Shown: positions 1 through 35,050 of the stretch, piece after piece
How the letters are laid out: each line of letters begins with the position of its first letter
Position numbering within the stretch: position 1 is the first letter of the stretch
Source: a virus
Length of the DNA: 44,066 nucleotides
IMG/VR virus record: IMGVR_UViG_3300014720_000057
Location: 1-44,066 of that record
Direction: 5' to 3' (one strand)
The notes under the pieces: model-generated
Told to the model about the DNA's origin: nothing
Seen by the model: only the letters and a program-made list of their open reading frames with translations
The model's database searches: none
Made by a program: the position numbers and the translations under genes

Positions 1-258
1 AGGACGTATTCAGCCGGTGTTGAAATCGGCGAGCTAGTTTCGCTGAAAGGAACACGGGCGGTACTGGCTAACAGTCGTAAACTATGGCGATGGGATGGCG
101 CTAATACCCTGCACGAAGTGTCACTGCACGGAGTTAGCGAAAAACATACCAGACTCAGCGAACCGGTAAAGAGTGTTATTCTAACAGAGTGCATCGAAAT
201 TATACCGGTCGCAAAAGAGGCGATCGGGAATCTTACGAGATCGAGGTGGGAAAAATGA
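1..258 (+). CDS. DUF6948-like protein, 5' end cut by window edge
   Basis: Reading frame 1 is open from the first base to a TGA at 256-258, giving 85 residues without a start codon in the window. The text 'RTYSAGVEIGEL', a central 'LWRWDGANTLHEVSLHGV' and a late 'ILTECIEIIPVAKEA' match my memory of the DUF6948 family, a small domain of unknown function common in phages. The stop overlaps the ATG of the next gene (ATGA, 255-258), so the two are probably translationally coupled. I recall DUF6948 genes standing next to Gly/Tyr-repeat genes in other phages, which fits here. Family assignment is by eye; the role is unknown. Confidence 0.8.
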   Translation, partial: RTYSAGVEIGELVSLKGTRAVLANSRKLWRWDGANTLHEVSLHGVSEKHTRLSEPVKSVILTECIEIIPVAKEAIGNLTRSRWEK

Positions 259-488
259 GCACACGGTTGGAAATGAGTCGCAGCGGCAGCGGCTACGGCT
301 ACGGCTACGGCTACGGCAGCAGCAACAGCAGCGGCAACGGCAACGGCTACGGCTACGGCTACGGCTACGGCAGCGGCAGCGGCTACGGCTACGGCTACGG
401 CTACGGCAGCGGCAACGGCAGCGGCAACGGCAACGGCAACGGCTACGGCAGCGGCAGCGGCAGCGGCAGCGGCGACGGCAGCGGTTGA
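255..488 (+). CDS. Gly-Tyr/Gly-Ser/Gly-Asn repeat protein
   Basis: A 77-residue product that starts MSTRLEMSRSG and then consists almost wholly of dipeptide repeats (GY, GS, GN, a single GD near the end). ATG 255 is preferred over an in-frame ATG at 189 because it overlaps the upstream stop (ATGA) and has GAGGTGGG just upstream. There is no signal peptide, cysteine or predicted helix. Such a chain should be disordered or form beta/aromatic contacts, like low-complexity Gly-Tyr segments that self-associate. Function is unknown; being coupled to a DUF6948 gene suggests the two act together. The repeat DNA makes the length likely to vary between isolates. Confidence 0.75.
   Translation: MSTRLEMSRSGSGYGYGYGYGSSNSSGNGNGYGYGYGYGSGSGYGYGYGYGSGNGSGNGNGNGYGSGSGSGSGDGSG
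281..485 (+). repeat. Hexanucleotide-type coding repeat (GGC-TAC / GGC-AGC / GGC-AAC)
   Basis: About 205 bp made of GGCNNC hexamers, mostly GGCTAC, GGCAGC and GGCAAC, arranged in blocks such as (GGCTAC)3-4 and (GGCAGC)4. Codon choice is uniform (always GGC for Gly, TAC for Tyr), so it is a true DNA repeat, not only a protein repeat. It can expand or contract by slippage or unequal recombination in steps that keep the frame. Confidence 0.9.
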
Positions 489-2405: not shown

Positions 2406-3845
2406 GTGGCATCAGAATATGAGCTATTCATAAAACGAAGATCGCAGTCTGACAAAATCGCTCCCGCAGAAATCAACGAGATGCCTAGTTATCTATTTGA
2501 CTTTCAAAAGATTCTGGTTGCATGGTCAATCTCTCAAGTTCGATCAGCAGTGTTTGCTGATTGCGGCATGGGAAAAACCGCAATGCAGCTAGCGTGGTCT
2601 AATATTGTTCACAAAATCACAGGCAAGAAAGTCTTACTGCTGACGCCGCTTGCGGTCGCAAGGCAAACTCAAAAAGAGGCCGAGAAATTCAACATAGAAG
2701 CTAAGTGCTCATTTAGTGGTGAAGCATCTTCGCCAATTACAATCACGAACTATGATAAACTCCACTTGTTTGAAAGCACTGATTTTGCCGGAGTGGCCTG
2801 CGATGAATCGTCAATCCTAAAGCACTTTGGCGGATCAACACAAAAACAAATAACACGATTCACAAACAAGACTCAGTATAGGTCGCTTTGGACAGCAACC
2901 GCAGCACCGAACGACTGGATCGAACTCGGCACTAGCTCTGAAGCTCTCGGAGAACTCTCACACTCCGACATGCTCAAAAGATTCTTCAGGCAACTCGACG
3001 ACAAGGGGCAGAAAAAAGAGCAACGATTACAAGATGAGGCGGAAAAGCTCATCAAGCAAGATGGTGAGTATTATGCAAAACTCTCGTTCCGAGTGGCTCA
3101 AACGATAGGTCAATGGCGTCTTAAGAATCACGCTGTTGAAGCGTTCTGGCGATGGGTAGCCTCATGGTCGAGAGCACTCAGAAGGCCTTCCGATATTGGG
3201 TGCTGCGATGGCGGATTTGAACTGCCGCCAATTCACTATCACGACCACATCATAAAGCCAAATACTCGCCAACCTGGAAGACTTTTTGATTTGCCTGCAT
3301 TCGGTCTAGCGGAAGAACGAGACGAGAGACGCAGAACACTCAAAGACAGATGCGATAAAGTGGCAGAGCTTTGCGATCATGAATCGCCAAGCGTGATTTG
3401 GTGCCACATGAACCAAGAAGGCGACATGCTCGAACAGGTGATTCCAGGATCAAGACAAATTGCCGGAAAAACACCTGATGAAGAAAAGGTAGAACTGTAT
3501 GAAGCATTCTCATCAGGCCAATTAAAAAAGCTCATTATCAAACCGAAGATTGGAGCCTACGGGCTGAACTGGCAGCATTGTAGTCACGTCATTTCGTTCG
3601 CAAGCCACTCGTTTGAGCAGACATATCAGAGCGTGAGACGTTGCTGGCGTTTTGGGCAAACAAACACGGTTACAGTCGACACCGTGGCGACTGAAGGTGA
3701 GATCCGAGTCTTAGAAAACATGAGAAGGAAATCAAAGCAAGCGGATGAGATGTTCACGAAGCTTGTTTCCGAGATGAATCGGGCAGAGAGACTAGAACGA
3801 GTCAACATTTATACCAAAAAAGCGGAGTTGCCAAAATGGCTGTAA
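2406..3845 (+). CDS. SNF2-like DEAD/DEAH-type helicase
   Basis: A 479-residue superfamily 2 ATPase. Start GTG 2406 is chosen for the AAGGAG 9 bp upstream; the frame is open further back (to 2214) but that part overlaps the previous gene. Motifs in order: Walker A 'DCGMGKT' (52-58), DEAH-like 'CDES' (132-135), motif III 'TATAAPND' (163-170) and motif VI 'QSVRRCWRFGQ' (408-418). The 'QxxRRxxRxGQ' form is typical of SNF2/Snf2-like ATPases, which move on duplex DNA. It overlaps the methyltransferase gene by 10 bp. This pairing is common in phages and may serve modification or anti-restriction, though that role is inferred. Confidence 0.88.
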   Translation: MASEYELFIKRRSQSDKIAPAEINEMPSYLFDFQKILVAWSISQVRSAVFADCGMGKTAMQLAWSNIVHKITGKKVLLLTPLAVARQTQKEAEKFNIEAKCSFSGEASSPITITNYDKLHLFESTDFAGVACDESSILKHFGGSTQKQITRFTNKTQYRSLWTATAAPNDWIELGTSSEALGELSHSDMLKRFFRQLDDKGQKKEQRLQDEAEKLIKQDGEYYAKLSFRVAQTIGQWRLKNHAVEAFWRWVASWSRALRRPSDIGCCDGGFELPPIHYHDHIIKPNTRQPGRLFDLPAFGLAEERDERRRTLKDRCDKVAELCDHESPSVIWCHMNQEGDMLEQVIPGSRQIAGKTPDEEKVELYEAFSSGQLKKLIIKPKIGAYGLNWQHCSHVISFASHSFEQTYQSVRRCWRFGQTNTVTVDTVATEGEIRVLENMRRKSKQADEMFTKLVSEMNRAERLERVNIYTKKAELPKWL

Positions 3846-4813
3846 GCGACCAATGCGTCACTGATGAGTATGCGATTTACAATGGGGACTGCATCGAAAT
3901 AATGCAAACTATTCCGAGCGAATCCATCGGACTGACTGTTTATTCGCCACCATTCGCAGGGCTGTACCAATATAGCAGCGACGACAGAGACATGAGCAAC
4001 TGCATTGATCAAAGCGAGTTTTTTGAGCACTACGGATTCTGCATTGATCAAATCGAACGAATCACGCAACCAGGACGCATATCCGCAGTCCATTGCATGG
4101 ACATACCACTAAGCAACGCGGGTCGCGATGCAATGTTCGATTTTCCTGGACGAATTATTGGCGAGCATGAGAAACGCGGCTTCGAATATGGTGGCCGCCG
4201 TGTGATTTGGAAAGAACCGCTAATGGTTCGAAATCGCACGATGATGAAAAGCCTTCACCATAAAACTTTCTGTGAAGACACGACACGCTGCAGCATCGCA
4301 AACGCTGATTACCTTCTCATGTTCCGCAAAAAAGGCGAAAACGCAAACCCAGTGACTCAAGAAAATGGCATGCTTAGTTACGCTGGAGAAAATGAGATTC
4401 CGTCTGAACTGAAACGGTTTCGCGGAATGAAAGGCGACCAAAAACTCAATCAGTATTCGCAGTGGATTTGGCGGCAATACGCTTCGAGCGTTTGGATGGA
4501 CATCAGAATAGACAACGTGCTTGCTACCGATTTATCAAAAGACCCAGAGGACGAAAGGCACGTCCATCCGCTTCAACTCGACGTCATTGAGCGGGCGGTA
4601 ATGATGTGGAGTAATCCTGGAGATATAGTTCTCACGCCATTCATGGGCGTCGGTTCTGAAGTTTATGGGGCAGTTTCAGTGGGTCGTCGCGGTGTTGGAG
4701 TCGAGCTGAAGCCAAGCTATTACCGGCAGGCTAAACGCAATCTCGAATCGCTAAAAAACAAGCCAAAAGAAAAAGAAGAACGATTACTTTTTGATCAGCC
4801 TGATTTGACATAG
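3836..4813 (+). CDS. Beta-class DNA methyltransferase (N4-C or N6-A)
   Basis: A 325-residue SAM-dependent DNA methyltransferase. The catalytic motif IV 'SPPF' is at 37-40, a target-recognition stretch fills the middle, and the SAM-binding motif I 'FMGVGS' is near the C-terminus (269-274) after 'HPLQLDVIERAVMMWSNPGD'. The order IV-TRD-I defines the beta class. SPPF/Y fits either N4-methylcytosine or N6-methyladenine, and I cannot say which. It overlaps the helicase by 10 bp, so the two are probably co-translated. A likely role is protecting phage DNA or altering host methylation. No restriction endonuclease is seen next to it, so it looks like an orphan. Confidence 0.9.
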   Translation: MAVSDQCVTDEYAIYNGDCIEIMQTIPSESIGLTVYSPPFAGLYQYSSDDRDMSNCIDQSEFFEHYGFCIDQIERITQPGRISAVHCMDIPLSNAGRDAMFDFPGRIIGEHEKRGFEYGGRRVIWKEPLMVRNRTMMKSLHHKTFCEDTTRCSIANADYLLMFRKKGENANPVTQENGMLSYAGENEIPSELKRFRGMKGDQKLNQYSQWIWRQYASSVWMDIRIDNVLATDLSKDPEDERHVHPLQLDVIERAVMMWSNPGDIVLTPFMGVGSEVYGAVSVGRRGVGVELKPSYYRQAKRNLESLKNKPKEKEERLLFDQPDLT

Positions 4814-5017: not shown

Positions 5018-5902
5018 GTGGAACTCAGAACTGGAAAGCGATCTAAACCCCGCCGAATCGTGCTCTACGGCGAGCACGGCATCGGAAAATCAACCTGGGC
5101 GGCAAGTGCCAAAGGTGCCGTATTTATCGACATCGAAGGCGGCTTAGATGACATTGATTGCCGGAGTTTTCCGCAGTGTCACGATTTATCTGCCGTTCGC
5201 GAATGTGTCATAAATGCTGACCAGATTGAGGGCGTTCGCTGGGTCGTGATCGACTCCGCCGACTGGCTCGAAGCCTTAATATGGAAAGACCTATGCGGCA
5301 GCACGAACGCCGAATCCATCCTCGCCTACGGCGGCGGATTCGGAAAAGGCTACCTTGCAGCCGCCCAGAAATTCGAAGCAGTACTCATCGCGCTAGACGG
5401 CCTGCGAGCTAAGGGCATTGGTATCATTTTCTTGGCCCATGCCAAAATTGCTCGTTTCGAATCGCCGGAAACAGCCGCTTACGATCGCTTCCAGCCTGCT
5501 TTGCATGATCGCACTGCCGCGATGTTACTGGAGTGGGCTGACGAAGTATTATTTGCGACCACGAAAGTCTTCACGAAAAAAGAAGACGCGGGATTCGGTC
5601 GCGAACGCAATATTGCCGTAGGCGGCAAAGAACGAGTCTTGAAAACCGCATCGTCCGCCACATGCGTTGCAAAAAACAGGCTGGGACTGCCTGACGAAAT
5701 CCCAATGGAGTGGCAGGAGTACGCTAAGTATCTGACGCCGTGGAATGTGTCGCCAGCGGTATTGCCAGCGGTATCAAAGCCGCCAATTGCAGCAGTTTCA
5801 GCGCCAGCTTCAGCGAATCCATTGATGCAAGAAATGGAAACAGCATTCGGCGATATCAGAGGAATTGTCACCAACGGGAGTAGTAAAAATGAGACTGTAT
5901 GA
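5018..5902 (+). CDS. Sak4-like phage ATPase (RecA fold)
   Basis: A 294-residue nucleotide-binding protein of the phage AAA_24/Sak4 kind, a RecA-like ATPase linked to single-strand annealing recombination. Walker A 'GEHGIGKS' is at 18-25; 'FIDIEGGLDDI' and the Walker B-like 'RWVVIDSADW' (75-83) follow. The C-terminal 50 residues are a Pro/Ala-rich tail. I chose GTG 5018 because GAAAGGTG sits 7 bp upstream; the frame is open to 4979 but that would include the second dyad. It overlaps the Gp157 gene by 14 bp. The context (Gp157, DUF669, helicase) is the usual Sak4 neighbourhood. Confidence 0.82.
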   Translation: MELRTGKRSKPRRIVLYGEHGIGKSTWAASAKGAVFIDIEGGLDDIDCRSFPQCHDLSAVRECVINADQIEGVRWVVIDSADWLEALIWKDLCGSTNAESILAYGGGFGKGYLAAAQKFEAVLIALDGLRAKGIGIIFLAHAKIARFESPETAAYDRFQPALHDRTAAMLLEWADEVLFATTKVFTKKEDAGFGRERNIAVGGKERVLKTASSATCVAKNRLGLPDEIPMEWQEYAKYLTPWNVSPAVLPAVSKPPIAAVSAPASANPLMQEMETAFGDIRGIVTNGSSKNETV

Positions 5903-22763: not shown

Positions 22764-23480
22764 ATGTCTGTTGCATTGATCAACAAGCCGGATTCGATCG
22801 AAAAGCGACGTTTAGCGTTCTTCATCGAAGACGACTTCGAAGGCTTCAACACGGGTGATACTTGGACGTCCGTTGTTGCTGATGCTGGTACTTCAGCGGC
22901 AGCGACCGACGCGGCTGGCGGTGTATTAGCGCTCGGCACAGCGGCGACCGATAACAATGAAGCCTATGTCAAAACGACGAAGGAAGTCTTCAAGATCGCA
23001 GCGAACAAGACCATTGAGGGTCAGGTTCGTGTGCAGTTTTCTGAAGCTAATACCGACGACGCAAACGTATTCGCCGGGTTCGCCGATGCTATCGGTGCGA
23101 ACACCCTGGTTGATGACGGGGCTGGCATGAAAACCAGCTTTAGCGGTGCGGTGTTTTTCAAAGTCGACGGCGGAACCAAGTGGAAAGTGCTTAGCTCGAT
23201 TAGCACTACACAAACAAGCAATACGACTGACGTGACTGCGGGCGGAAGCTCTTATCAGTTGCTCACGATTCGAATCGTGCCGATCAGCAGCACTGAGGCT
23301 GATGTTACGTTTTTTGTCGACGATCAACAGTGTCGCGACAACACGACCGGCGAGCTTATTAATCACCGTATCACCTACACAGGTGCTACTGAAATGCAAT
23401 TGGGCTGGGGTGTTAAAGCAGGTGGTGCAAACGCCGAAACGCTCAATATTGATTATGTCACCGGCGCGATGACTCGCTAA
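22764..23480 (+). CDS. Beta-sandwich protein, candidate capsid decoration protein
   Basis: A 238-residue protein preceded by AGAGGAA. 'FFIEDDFEGFNTGDTWTSVVADAGTSAAATDAAGGVLALGT' looks like a concanavalin-like jelly-roll, the opening of many virion surface proteins. Its place between protease/scaffold and capsid genes suggests a decoration or cement protein. The final 15 coding bases are part of a tandem duplication that extends past the stop. The fold is guessed from strand pattern only. Confidence 0.65.
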   Translation: MSVALINKPDSIEKRRLAFFIEDDFEGFNTGDTWTSVVADAGTSAAATDAAGGVLALGTAATDNNEAYVKTTKEVFKIAANKTIEGQVRVQFSEANTDDANVFAGFADAIGANTLVDDGAGMKTSFSGAVFFKVDGGTKWKVLSSISTTQTSNTTDVTAGGSSYQLLTIRIVPISSTEADVTFFVDDQQCRDNTTGELINHRITYTGATEMQLGWGVKAGGANAETLNIDYVTGAMTR

Positions 23481-23496
23481 CGCGATGACTCGCTAA
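23465..23496 (+). repeat. 16-bp tandem duplication at a stop codon
   Basis: CGCGATGACTCGCTAA occurs twice in a row, 23465-23480 and 23481-23496. The first copy ends the candidate decoration gene (TAA 23478-23480); the second lies wholly after the stop and is silent. It appears to be a recent slippage event. Confidence 0.85.
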
Positions 23497-31299: not shown

Positions 31300-32214
31300 A
31301 TGCCATCGACAGCAATACCATTCGAGGAGATCACGCCGAAAGGTGGCGGGCTGAAAGTCGCTCGTGACGGATCGGCATCGGCAACTCGCGTTTTTAAGGT
31401 GTCAGGCCCTAATTCATTGGGCTTTATGTCGTATTTGCTCACCGGAGATCTAGGCTTCCCATTGGCTTATCCGGGCCTTCCTGGAATGCGAGTCGACGAA
31501 GTAACGCGGGAGAATTACACAGATAAGGCAACGGCGGCTTCGTTCGGTACTTATACCGACGCGGCGAATCATCTTGCCGTCCGCGAAGAAGTCGAAATCA
31601 CAGTCACATACAAACCTTTTCCGATTCCTTCGGCAGGTGATTCTGCTGATTTACCGAGTGGCACATGGGCTGAATATAAAACTAGGGCGGCAGGTGCGAG
31701 GCGGTCCATTCCAAAGACTCAGCTAACGTGGGCAACAGACGGCAAGCCAGTCATCGGCGAAGATGTCGAAGACTCGCTCTATCTTGTTGAATCCGAGCAT
31801 GTTGTCACATGGCACAACGTGCCGAATCCCCCTTGGTCAGCGATTGCAAACTGCGAGGGTTGTATCAACGCCAATGAGTGGCGAATCCCTGGAACGCCGC
31901 AATATGTGTTTGCCGGGACGATGCTGTTTATGGGTGCGACGACTTCACTGAAACTCGATCTAAATAGCTCGAACAACAAACGCTCGCTGGAATACTCGTT
32001 TCGATCGCGGCATTGGCGAGTCGGTCAACTGGGAAGCGGCAACGTCAAGAATACGGCAGGATCTTATCCCGGCACGGTTTACGGCTGGCAGTATATTATT
32101 CGGCCTGACGCGGCGGACGGTATTAAACTAGACCGACCAGTGCGACCGAATGGCAGTTACCTTTACTCGACTGCAAATTTTGCGACGCTCTTTCAATTTG
32201 AAGCGTTTCCGTAA
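31300..32214 (+). CDS. Tail protein following the tape measure (distal tail candidate)
   Basis: A 304-residue protein starting MPSTAIPFEEITPKGGGLKVARDGSASATRVFKVSG. It is rich in beta-like text, with aromatic clusters ('WHNVPNPPWSAIANCEGCINANEWRIPGTPQYVF') and a late 'KRSLEYSFRSRHWRVGQLGSGNV'. Genes in this place usually encode Dit-like or hub proteins of the tail tip. I find no fixed motif. It is separated from the following tail protein gene by 13 bp. Confidence 0.6.
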   Translation: MPSTAIPFEEITPKGGGLKVARDGSASATRVFKVSGPNSLGFMSYLLTGDLGFPLAYPGLPGMRVDEVTRENYTDKATAASFGTYTDAANHLAVREEVEITVTYKPFPIPSAGDSADLPSGTWAEYKTRAAGARRSIPKTQLTWATDGKPVIGEDVEDSLYLVESEHVVTWHNVPNPPWSAIANCEGCINANEWRIPGTPQYVFAGTMLFMGATTSLKLDLNSSNNKRSLEYSFRSRHWRVGQLGSGNVKNTAGSYPGTVYGWQYIIRPDAADGIKLDRPVRPNGSYLYSTANFATLFQFEAFP

Positions 32215-32227
32215 AAAGGTGGGCGAC

Positions 32228-35050
32228 ATGGCCGAGTTCAAGGCGGGTCAGCCGCTCACAGCACAGGCACTTAACGAAGCATTCGAAGAAGTCTCGACGA
32301 ATCGCAGCGAGGTGCCTTCGTTCGGCGAGCGGGTGCCGCAAAATAATAATCGCATTCGTGTGAGGCTCGATTATCCGTATCGCGCCCCGATGGGCGCTTG
32401 TGTTGGCATCGACTTTCCGATCCGAGGTCATACGGTCGAAGATACCAACGGGCTGTTGCGTTTTTTGCACGAGGAGACGGTCTACTCATGCACGAAGAAT
32501 CAATATCGTCATCACAACCGTTGGGGCATTCTTGAGCAACCACTCGCTCCGGGAGAGGTTGGCTGGGCGATCGTTTCGGGCGTGGCTAAGACTTTTTGGC
32601 ACGCTGCTTGGCCGCCGTATACGTCTGCCCGCAGTGCGATTGACGCTAACTATAAAAGCACTGAAGAAAACCTGCCGCCAGAAAGCACGAATGCGGCGGT
32701 CGATGAATATCGGCAGTTAGCCATTTTGAGTGCTGATTACTCAACATCAGAAGGAGCGGAGAGCGGGCTAAGAGGTTCTGAGCACTACTTAGAAAGCGGC
32801 CAGTGGCATAATCGCGAGCGACCGTGGTGGCTCGCCCCACGTCCAAGACCATATCCGCCCGAAGATGATCCGGATGCTGATAGCGCAAATGAACTGCTAT
32901 ACCCGTTTGGGGAAACACTTGAGTCGACTTATAATCTTTTTTTGCAAGGTACTAGGACGCCTTATATGGCTTCATCCTACGGCAGGGCGATGGGCCTAAG
33001 CGGTTATGTCGTGCCTGAGCCGACATGCACTGGGACATCGACAGCAACATGCCAAGGCGCACACTGGGTTATCACAGAGAGCACATGCAATGGAGGGTGC
33101 TCTTCGTGGCATCTGATTGAAAGAATTGACACTTCAGATAATTATGGATTGACGCTTCCGTGTGCTGAAGATTCTGTAGTCTATGATATTCCTTGCGGTC
33201 CAGAATATCCGGTTTTTGATTTCACAGCAGTTAGCCCAAATCAGAACGACAAGGTTTTTACGTCTCCAGTTGGCGATTGGGATAATTCTTATAAGGCGTA
33301 TTTAGACTATGCTAGAAACTGGATTTTGGGACATGCCATTCTTGGAACGTCTTCGAAATACGGGGTGATTGACGATGAGCTGACGATGATCGACGAGGAG
33401 TTGGATCATCGACCTCTTCATTTTCCAGATCCGCTCAATGACAGCAGTGTTGTTAATGTCGATGGAATCATTAAAGATGAGCAGTGGGGGCTGGTCTTAA
33501 GGGCATGCGCAAACTTAACATGCACATATGAATGTGATGGTTCTTCTTGGCAAAGAGTCAGGGGGGAAACTCCATACTTTATTGACGAGCGTTGGCGATG
33601 TAAGTGCCCGGATGCGTGGATGGCGGATATGGCAGATAAAGATTTGCCATGCGGAGAAAATACGCTTCCGAAGGAATTCACCGTTGGGATGATTTATTCC
33701 CATACAGACATGATCGGGGCCTGTTGTGACCTAGGAAATAGCACATGCTCTAGGATTAGCCGCGAAGACTGCATTGATGCTGGCCATGTGTGGCGTGGTT
33801 ATGGGTCTCTGTGCGAAGATGGGGTTTGCGAAAAAGGTGCTTGTTGCGAATACAATCCTACTCTCAGTTATTACGAGTGCTCTATTGTTTTTGAGCATGA
33901 ATGCGGCGGCACATATCACGGAGATGGATCTAGTTGCAACCCTGACCCATGCAATGCTGTCGGTGCGTGTTGCGTTCCAGATATTGAGTCGAGGGACTGC
34001 CGAGAGATTACGAGGCCGGAATGCCTTGCTCTAAATGGTCATTTTTATGGCGAAAACTCTCAGTGCATTAGCGATATCACCTGCTTTCCGCAAGGTGCCT
34101 GTTGCACTCCGGCTGGTGGCGGAGCGACTAGCGGCAGTTGCTCGGTCGTTCAAGAAGTGTTGTGTGTTGGCTCATCTACATACCTTGGCGACGGGACGAC
34201 GTGCGAGCCAGACCCGTGCAACCAAGCGTGCTGCATGCCAGCGAATGTTTTTCAGCAGTGTTTCGACTATTACCTATATGGTGCAACAGACAACTGCACG
34301 CTGGGTGGCGGTACGCCGCTTGGGCAGTTTACCTCATGTGCCAGCGATGAAGGGTCATGTCCGCCTGATGAGTTTGGAGCGTGCTGCCGGAATAAGGGGA
34401 TTGAGTATGTAATGACCTGTGAAATTCTCAACGAGGCAGACTGCTTGGCGTTAGATCCGAACTACCCGTATGAAGCTGGTATTTATCAAGGCGACGGAAC
34501 ATCATGCACGCCTGATCCTTGCGGGGTTCCAACAACAACCACAACAACCACAACAACCACAACAACCACAACAACTACTACCACTACCACGACTTCGTCA
34601 ACAACCACAACAACCGAAGGCACATCATCGAGCACAACGACAACAACCGGAACAGGTGCTTGTTGTATCAATAATATTGAAGGCGGGCAGACGTGTGCCG
34701 TCGAAAATGAAGAAGACTGCAACGCTCATGCGGGCGGTGCAACATATATGGGCGACGGCACGACATGCTCGCCAAACCCGTGCAGCACAACATCGACAAC
34801 AACGACATCGAGCACAACGACAACCTCGCAGGGCGGAAGTTCAAGCTCATCAACGACAACGACGCAAGGCGGCAGTTCGTCGTCAACGACGACTTCCGAA
34901 TGCGGCGGAACATGCTTCTGGCAGTGTGCCGAAGGCAACTGGAGCGTTGTTACAGACGAGTGTGCGGGTGCTCCGTCTTGCGTTTGCCAAACGCCGTTTA
35001 CTGAGTGTGTGAACGGCGGATTTGATACGACGAATTGCTTCATTCCATAA
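32228..35050 (+). CDS. Large Cys-rich, Thr/Ser-rich tail protein (fibre/adhesin candidate)
   Basis: A 940-residue protein; ATG 32228 follows AAAAAGGTGGG and an earlier in-frame ATG (32150) overlaps the preceding gene. The first ~490 residues look like a tail protein body. From about residue 500 there are seven repeats of ~40 residues, 'GACC....C....C....GDGT(T/S)C.PDPC', six Cys each, so disulfides or metal are likely. Between repeats 6 and 7 lies a poly-Thr run (about 21 Thr, then Thr/Ser), and after repeat 7 two Thr/Ser-rich blocks with Gly-Gly-Ser. The C-terminus is again Cys-rich (about 8 Cys in the last 45). It probably binds the host surface. The glycan enzymes directly downstream suggest it is a substrate. 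Confidence 0.78.
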   Translation: MAEFKAGQPLTAQALNEAFEEVSTNRSEVPSFGERVPQNNNRIRVRLDYPYRAPMGACVGIDFPIRGHTVEDTNGLLRFLHEETVYSCTKNQYRHHNRWGILEQPLAPGEVGWAIVSGVAKTFWHAAWPPYTSARSAIDANYKSTEENLPPESTNAAVDEYRQLAILSADYSTSEGAESGLRGSEHYLESGQWHNRERPWWLAPRPRPYPPEDDPDADSANELLYPFGETLESTYNLFLQGTRTPYMASSYGRAMGLSGYVVPEPTCTGTSTATCQGAHWVITESTCNGGCSSWHLIERIDTSDNYGLTLPCAEDSVVYDIPCGPEYPVFDFTAVSPNQNDKVFTSPVGDWDNSYKAYLDYARNWILGHAILGTSSKYGVIDDELTMIDEELDHRPLHFPDPLNDSSVVNVDGIIKDEQWGLVLRACANLTCTYECDGSSWQRVRGETPYFIDERWRCKCPDAWMADMADKDLPCGENTLPKEFTVGMIYSHTDMIGACCDLGNSTCSRISREDCIDAGHVWRGYGSLCEDGVCEKGACCEYNPTLSYYECSIVFEHECGGTYHGDGSSCNPDPCNAVGACCVPDIESRDCREITRPECLALNGHFYGENSQCISDITCFPQGACCTPAGGGATSGSCSVVQEVLCVGSSTYLGDGTTCEPDPCNQACCMPANVFQQCFDYYLYGATDNCTLGGGTPLGQFTSCASDEGSCPPDEFGACCRNKGIEYVMTCEILNEADCLALDPNYPYEAGIYQGDGTSCTPDPCGVPTTTTTTTTTTTTTTTTTTTTTSSTTTTTEGTSSSTTTTTGTGACCINNIEGGQTCAVENEEDCNAHAGGATYMGDGTTCSPNPCSTTSTTTTSSTTTTSQGGSSSSSTTTTQGGSSSSTTTSECGGTCFWQCAEGNWSVVTDECAGAPSCVCQTPFTECVNGGFDTTNCFIP
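34531..34660 (+). repeat. Poly-Thr coding repeat (ACA/ACC triplets)
   Basis: A stretch of ACA and ACC triplets (ACAACAACC in tandem), then ACT/ACC, TCG and TCA, encodes about 21 Thr and then a Thr/Ser-rich linker in the tail protein. The DNA is a true nonamer repeat that can change length. On the other strand it reads as poly-Val, which is a shadow. Confidence 0.85.

Follow-up and report, generated by a model that had tools for sequence, protein, structure and literature searches.

Here, I show that a gene for a DUF6948 protein and an adjoining gene for a low-complexity chain of alternating glycine and a second residue, (GX)n, make up a widespread and conserved phage module. This is well supported by the 138 loci scored, in which a same-strand array stands downstream of the DUF6948 gene in 120 and upstream of it in 2 (122 in total, by a strict test). 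The preliminary description of the DNA analysed here, drawn up from its letters, had ascribed the same arrangement to other phages and suspected a functional unit, and the survey bears out that the unit is conserved. That DNA, hereafter the window, is an IMG/VR virus record of 44,066 bases classed as linear, and the pair stands at its very start (Table 1).

The open frame at positions 1-258 of the window (forward strand) matches PF22253 with an E value of 3.3e-21 over profile positions 7-82 of 85, its 75.7 bits standing above the curated cut-off of 27 bits; no Pfam family but DUF6948 was matched. The protein lacks its first residues, for the contig begins inside the gene, and it is 65% identical to that of the relative L008. 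The ATGA that the preliminary description read as common to both genes is present; the span of 255-488 which it gave covers the repeat ORF alone. The repeat ORF opens with a short non-repeat leader, MSTRLEMSRS, and continues as alternating Gly-X in which X is mostly Tyr, Ser and Asn (Tyr 9, Ser 9, Asn 6 and Asp 1 in the longest unbroken stretch). The underlying hexanucleotide array is broken once, by AGC AAC AGC AGC, and is reported by Tandem Repeats Finder both at 280-484 (period 6, 34.2 copies, score 207) and at 280-479 (period 42, score 281). GGC accounts for 31 of the 32 Gly codons of this ORF, against 50% of 574 Gly codons in 19 other ORFs of the window, and from codon 10 on the third base is C in 67/68 codons. 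A DNA-mimic reading was set aside as a general one, there being one Asp in the longest part of the window array. Elsewhere in the window there are a perfect 16-bp tandem duplication, CGCGATGACTCGCTAA (23465-23496), just 5' of the capsid gene, and threonine-rich low-complexity stretches (ACA/ACC-like repeats) at 34530-34615 and 34787-34893, inside the ORF at 32150-35050.

Table 1. Positions of the features discussed, in the window unless another locus is named
Feature	Position	Strand	Details	Basis
DUF6948 (PF22253) gene, predicted Sm-like fold	1..258	+		Pfam; relative L008 modelled
GAGG, putatively Shine-Dalgarno-like	243..246	+	8 nt 5' of array ATG	sequence
ATGA	255..258	+	DUF6948 stop and array start codon overlapping	sequence
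(GX)n low-complexity ORF	255..488	+	77 aa, ATG 255 to TGA 488	translation
Hexanucleotide array	285..485	+	GGC alternating with TAC/AGC/AAC/GAC codons	repeat finder, codon reading
Small ORFs, then replication/recombination genes	downstream of the pair			Pfam
Helicase domain	2406-3842			Pfam
Fusion ORF of locus L164	4963-5622		first ATG 4963, stop 5620-5622	profile, frame reading

With the window fragment as query, tblastn matched 15 phage records and 3 plasmid-collection records, and a (GX)n frame adjoins DUF6948 in all six of the 15 phage records that were examined (5 downstream, 1 upstream). Among viral contigs the window protein gave no confirmed relative as a single query; a DUF6948 profile search did find relatives, and the best 80 of 568 viral ones by score were kept, plus 51 genome-contig loci. 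These, the six phages and the window are the 138 loci scored, some phages being present more than once (L001 = L032 = L088; L056 = L090; L059 = L093). The order is reversed, with the array upstream of DUF6948, in L006 and L041. The strict test excludes Pro and drops arrays with less than 70% of X in YFWSDNTHEK, and the same filter (at least 70%, no Pro) lies behind the 106-array composition and the codon-uniformity counts given below. By this test 16/138 loci lack an array. Five of these 16 end their contig within 200 bases, and of the other 11, inspected by eye, nine have a short, Ala-/Gly-rich or degenerate array, L138 has a truncated partner and L010 shows none. A gene neighbourhood survey had been called for in the preliminary description; in it a DUF6948 gene mostly has a repeat partner (122/138), so that the partnerless state is not the rule.

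Under the one rule chosen for picking start codons, the array ATG lies at -12 from the DUF6948 stop in 67/120 loci and at -3, the value of the window, in 10/120. The 102 array ORFs that are complete span 23-267 aa, with a median length of 85 aa. The invariance of the RTYS-GV stretch in DUF6948 is partly by construction, since the search patterns contain it. In the closest relative, L008, about 2 kb following DUF6948 (2790-4780) contain one (GX)n stretch after another, many in all and in differing frames. The contigs of L011, L012, L017, L026, L040, L072 and others end in or just past the (GX)n array, as would happen if short-read assembly failed at the repeat; the window itself begins just before its array.

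The pairing was also approached from the side of the repeat. The repeat alone, searched as two DNA patterns, yielded 15 and at least 120 stretches. Of 135 such stretches, 3 had no run and 19 lay at a contig edge; with these left out, 113 non-edge arrays remain. Arrays without DUF6948 led to two upstream gene families, fam2 and fam3, and to a small group, fam2b; array-partner families were defined from the first 95 of the 135 stretches, from which the fam2, fam3 and fam2b profiles were also partly built. By profiles, 100/113 non-edge arrays have a partner (DUF6948 50, fam2 30, fam3 17, fam2b 3), and the partner in L207, which matches PF22253 by Pfam, brings this to 101/113; at 12/113 neither the family profiles nor Pfam revealed one. 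The 40 stretches that played no part in defining the families include 37 non-edge arrays, of which 33 are partnered. The best 80 of 453 fam2 loci by score have the array downstream in 72, upstream in 2, a contig end in 5 and none in 1, and for the best 80 of 329 fam3 loci the figures are 76 downstream, 3 contig ends and 1 without, some of the loci counted being those that defined the family. Taken together, 148 of these 160 loci have a run in the slot after the partner gene, against 17 similar runs outside that slot (about 497 kb, both strands), hence an array in this slot is more than chance. That the repeat ORF might not be conserved in relatives was a further doubt raised at the outset; arrays beside DUF6948 recur across both the forward and the repeat-only searches.

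Profile comparison indicates that fam2 is probably related to DUF6948, though not the same family: the two compare at 91% when L207, an intermediate sequence (36.1 bits against PF22253), is included in the fam2 set and at 79% (E 1.7e-5) when it is left out. The figure is 98.6% for fam2 against fam3 and 9% for DUF6948 against fam3. The PF22253 match is absent in the two fam2, one fam3 and one fam2b sequences tested, and Pfam gave no match at E up to 1 for two fam2 sequences and one fam3 sequence.

Structural models suggest that DUF6948 and fam2 likely share an Sm/LSm-like small beta-barrel fold. The single-chain AlphaFold model of DUF6948 (from L008) has a pLDDT of 94.8 and a pTM of 0.86; that of fam2 has a pLDDT of 87.9 and the same order of elements. 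For DUF6948, Foldseek lists 50 PDB matches, all of them Sm/LSm, snRNP or spliceosome entries, with a best E of 5.6e-3 and nothing at 0.001 or better; the 50 that VIA lists belong to these groups too, at Z 6.9-8.0, the best being 1i8f (Z 8.0, 62 residues, 1.7 A). The best match of the fam2 model is 6ppq (Z 8.7, 62 residues, 1.8 A), and its 50 matches are also of the Sm/LSm kind, bar two titled NatC and three titled TIP60, which are presumably Sm-type parts. Second for fam2 comes 3by7, an Sm-like protein whose title gives an uncultured source and which is of putative cyanophage origin; it reaches Z 8.3 to fam2 and 7.0 to DUF6948, and has no sequence match to the DUF6948 profile. Both models place a helix between strands 3 and 4; in classical Sm proteins the helix comes before the strands. 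By the tool's own caution, a Z below 8 can reflect nothing beyond a frequent arrangement, and likeness of fold says nothing about function; the fold is graded as likely, short of proven. Sequence comparison of the DUF6948 profile with PDB chains gave no match up to an E value of 10, PHROGs returned only phrog_18306 (E 0.038) and an NCBIfam search gave nothing useful.

Another line of evidence comes from in-frame fusions. L164 joins the two parts in one reading frame, its DUF6948 domain (profile E 3.7e-20) being followed directly by a (GX)n tail. No comparable joining in the DUF6948 frame occurs among the 137 forward loci, where both parts are separate ORFs. When two proteins of many phages are met as a single protein in another, this is a classical sign of parts working together, and L164 looks like an unsplit form of the module. 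A programmed frameshift joining both ORFs was rejected as a general mechanism, for the array frame relative to DUF6948 varies (modulo 3: 91, 24 and 5 of 120).

In L184 (ORF 1746-2279) and L206 the array is instead the C-terminal part of a DUF7666 (PF24703) protein (E 2.8e-29 and 5.7e-30), likewise a phage protein with a low-complexity repeat tail, yet with a different N-terminal domain by Pfam. Among the best 80 of 150 DUF7666 loci the tail is (GX)n in 8, and an Sm-like gene lies nearby in seven of these eight, the eighth ending its contig there; the remaining 72 have other tails or none, and none of those stretches (0/72 examined) has an Sm-like gene nearby. The seven loci are 58-100% identical to the query, whose own contig is included, and several DUF7666 contigs end within the tail; being related, they are nearer to one event than to seven, yet they tie the Sm-like gene to the Gly-X chain. 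The C-termini of the DUF7666 proteins in L184, L434-L440 and L477 carry NTGDWN-like, SAATNTG-like or (GX)n repeats behind a shared N-terminal domain.

Since Sm-fold proteins with low-complexity tails are known and L164 offers the unsplit form, an Sm-like ring with a Tyr-rich sticker chain is proposed here. The module would consist of two translationally coupled proteins, usually separate chains. The product of DUF6948, fam2 or fam3 would be an Sm/LSm-like protein, expected to assemble into a ring and to bind nucleic acid, whether RNA or another. The (GX)n chain, of low complexity and made of Gly, Tyr, Ser and Asp/Asn, would self-associate through its aromatic residues and, by physical interaction with the Sm-like protein, serve as its tail in trans, comparable to the disordered tails of Hfq and LSm proteins. 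During infection, possibly at an early time, it would gather the Sm-like protein and its bound cargo into condensates, or else tune binding. That the module pairs an Sm-like nucleic-acid-binding protein with a self-associating tail in trans, acting through condensates or tuned binding, is the reading I favour, at somewhat less than even confidence. Less probable is the narrower proposal that in phages of very diverse hosts the ring-forming Sm-like binder and the Gly-X chain build a ribonucleoprotein condensate, a compartment on phage RNA or DNA; to the same doubtful degree, the sticker chain of such a condensate would be a fast-evolving one, written in few hexanucleotide units.

The surroundings of the pair and its rate of change bear on the foremost alternative, namely counter-defence, in which the beta-barrel protein would sequester a host ligand (a nucleotide signal, RNA or a protein) and the (GX)n chain would trap a defence factor, with variation driven by an arms race. 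The DUF6948-array pair behaves as its own unit. Further downstream in the window lie N6_N4 methylase, AAA_24, Gp157, DUF669, ResIII/DEAD helicase and DUF3987 genes; a scan of the nearest proteins of at least 95 aa (85 of 120 upstream and 72 of 103 downstream candidates) found no Pfam family in more than 2/85 upstream or 3/72 downstream neighbours. Recombination-type families do recur among the 157 (DUF3799 5, ERF 3, AAA_24 3, YqaJ 2, RecT 1). Small genes with varied neighbours speak for counter-defence, and so do arrays that change faster than their partner gene. Array length differs in 11/26 pairs with identical partner genes, in 12/14 at 97-100% partner identity, in 14/14 at 93-97% and in 8/8 at 88-93%, with the reservation that the pairs overlap, that some are one phage twice and that array lengths from metagenome contigs can be assembly errors. 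Subject to such errors, the length variation that the preliminary description had predicted from the repeat DNA is thus seen between near-identical modules of relatives. The contigs are binned to very diverse organisms, which argues against one narrow target; a PADLOC scan found nothing, its models describing defence and not counter-defence. On balance I regard counter-defence as unlikely.

The simpler array pairs (L359/L361 and L385/L389) differ by whole blocks, and turnover by block duplication and deletion explains much of the DNA uniformity within arrays. It likewise accounts for turnover without a diversity-generating mechanism of the DGR type, which had been considered given that X varies and third bases often do not; the scarcity of synonymous variants is only partly accounted for in this way.

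The composition of the array is consistent with the condensate formation that the preliminary description had suggested. X is Ser, Tyr, Asp, Asn or Phe at 2855/3010 positions in the 106 arrays that pass the composition filter and at 2805/3145 in 110 unfiltered arrays; in the latter Ala stands at X 31 times, against 237 expected were codon positions 1 and 2 independent. Strict Gly alternation, dispensable for a condensate, may point to an ordered, silk-like or amyloid assembly, in which beta sheets or fibres would arise from stacked Gly-X strands, with the Sm-like protein as their dedicated chaperone or cap. Silk-type GX repeats are formally alike to the (GX)n alternation, and such an assembly would accord with the limited choice of X and with array and DUF6948 being separate ORFs in the 137 forward loci. 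Many arrays are Asp-rich, though, which should disfavour stacking, and the L164 fusion fits a tail better than a chaperone and its client; an ordered assembly is accordingly judged rather improbable. The array also hit TrAA12 (E 0.013) and PDB chains (E 0.028-0.58), which was put down to low-complexity noise.

The codons speak to a third possibility, that what matters is the repeat as nucleic acid, offering the Sm-like protein a multivalent site on RNA or DNA by which it would regulate its own expression, the polypeptide being a by-product. Sm-like proteins bind RNA. Among 72 long arrays, the Gly codon is uniform in 55, the third base of X in 49 and both in 41, and the other two forward frames are both stop-free in 63 of 76 long arrays, all of which would suit such a site. 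With the other frames open too, an open frame alone cannot pick the reading frame; the Gly-X frame was chosen on the amino acids common to the arrays, on where the ORF starts and on the in-frame fusions. Between arrays, on the other hand, the Gly codon and the third base differ, and Ser is TCN in some and AGY in others, yet the amino-acid set is kept, so that a protein pattern and not one DNA motif is common to them. Ala is depleted though its codon consists of common bases, the start codon is kept near the partner stop, the array is in frame with DUF6948 in L164 and with DUF7666 in L184, and uniform codons fit block duplication; a role as nucleic acid therefore appears very improbable. Least probable of all is that hexamers, selfish or neutral, have expanded within an ORF that is tolerated 3' of a useful gene and has no function itself, a reading for which turnover by block duplication and deletion and the short or degenerate arrays at some loci can be cited, but which should leave X unrestricted, as it is not, and would hardly place one pattern beside DUF6948, fam2 and fam3 or confine DUF7666 arrays to loci that either show an Sm-like gene or lie at a contig end.

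To return to the Sm-like protein with its tail in trans, partial parallels are known. Acinetobacter Hfq has a glycine-rich repetitive C-terminal tail (PMC5663733), the acidic tail tip of E. coli Hfq regulates RNA binding of the core (PMC5606850), and the eukaryotic LSm protein Lsm7 forms foci by phase separation and seeds condensates (PMC9240020). The likeness to Hfq consists of an Sm-fold core, predicted in the phage protein, and a low-complexity chain; however, the Hfq tail belongs to the same chain, whereas in the phage module it is usually a separate overlapping gene, fused in L164, and DUF6948 has no sequence match to PDB chains and would bind nucleic acid by inference. Lsm7 is similarly an LSm protein with a disordered region, but it is eukaryotic, of other composition, and has that region in the same chain. 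According to a survey of low-complexity regions with phages among its subjects, aromatic residues are under-represented in such regions, and the part of it available makes no mention of the DUF6948-(GX)n pair (PMC6821194). Searches of an open-licence library found no paper on DUF6948 or DUF7666, nor any on the gene pair among the titles and abstract openings listed.

To sum up, two uncharacterised genes become a defined and testable module, adjoining in well over a hundred contigs, with a fold suggested for DUF6948 as well as for a second family whose tested sequences gave no Pfam match. Here nature has mostly put an Sm-like protein and a low-complexity tail on separate genes, each testable apart. 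Of five annotated phage loci, L003 and L005 have the array annotated in the Gly-X frame and L001 and L006 in another frame, and L004 lacks a call for it. If condensates form, the (GX)n chain would be a widespread component of a phage-made compartment, one badly handled by annotation, and the gene pair may represent an undescribed phage device that gathers RNA or proteins into droplets.
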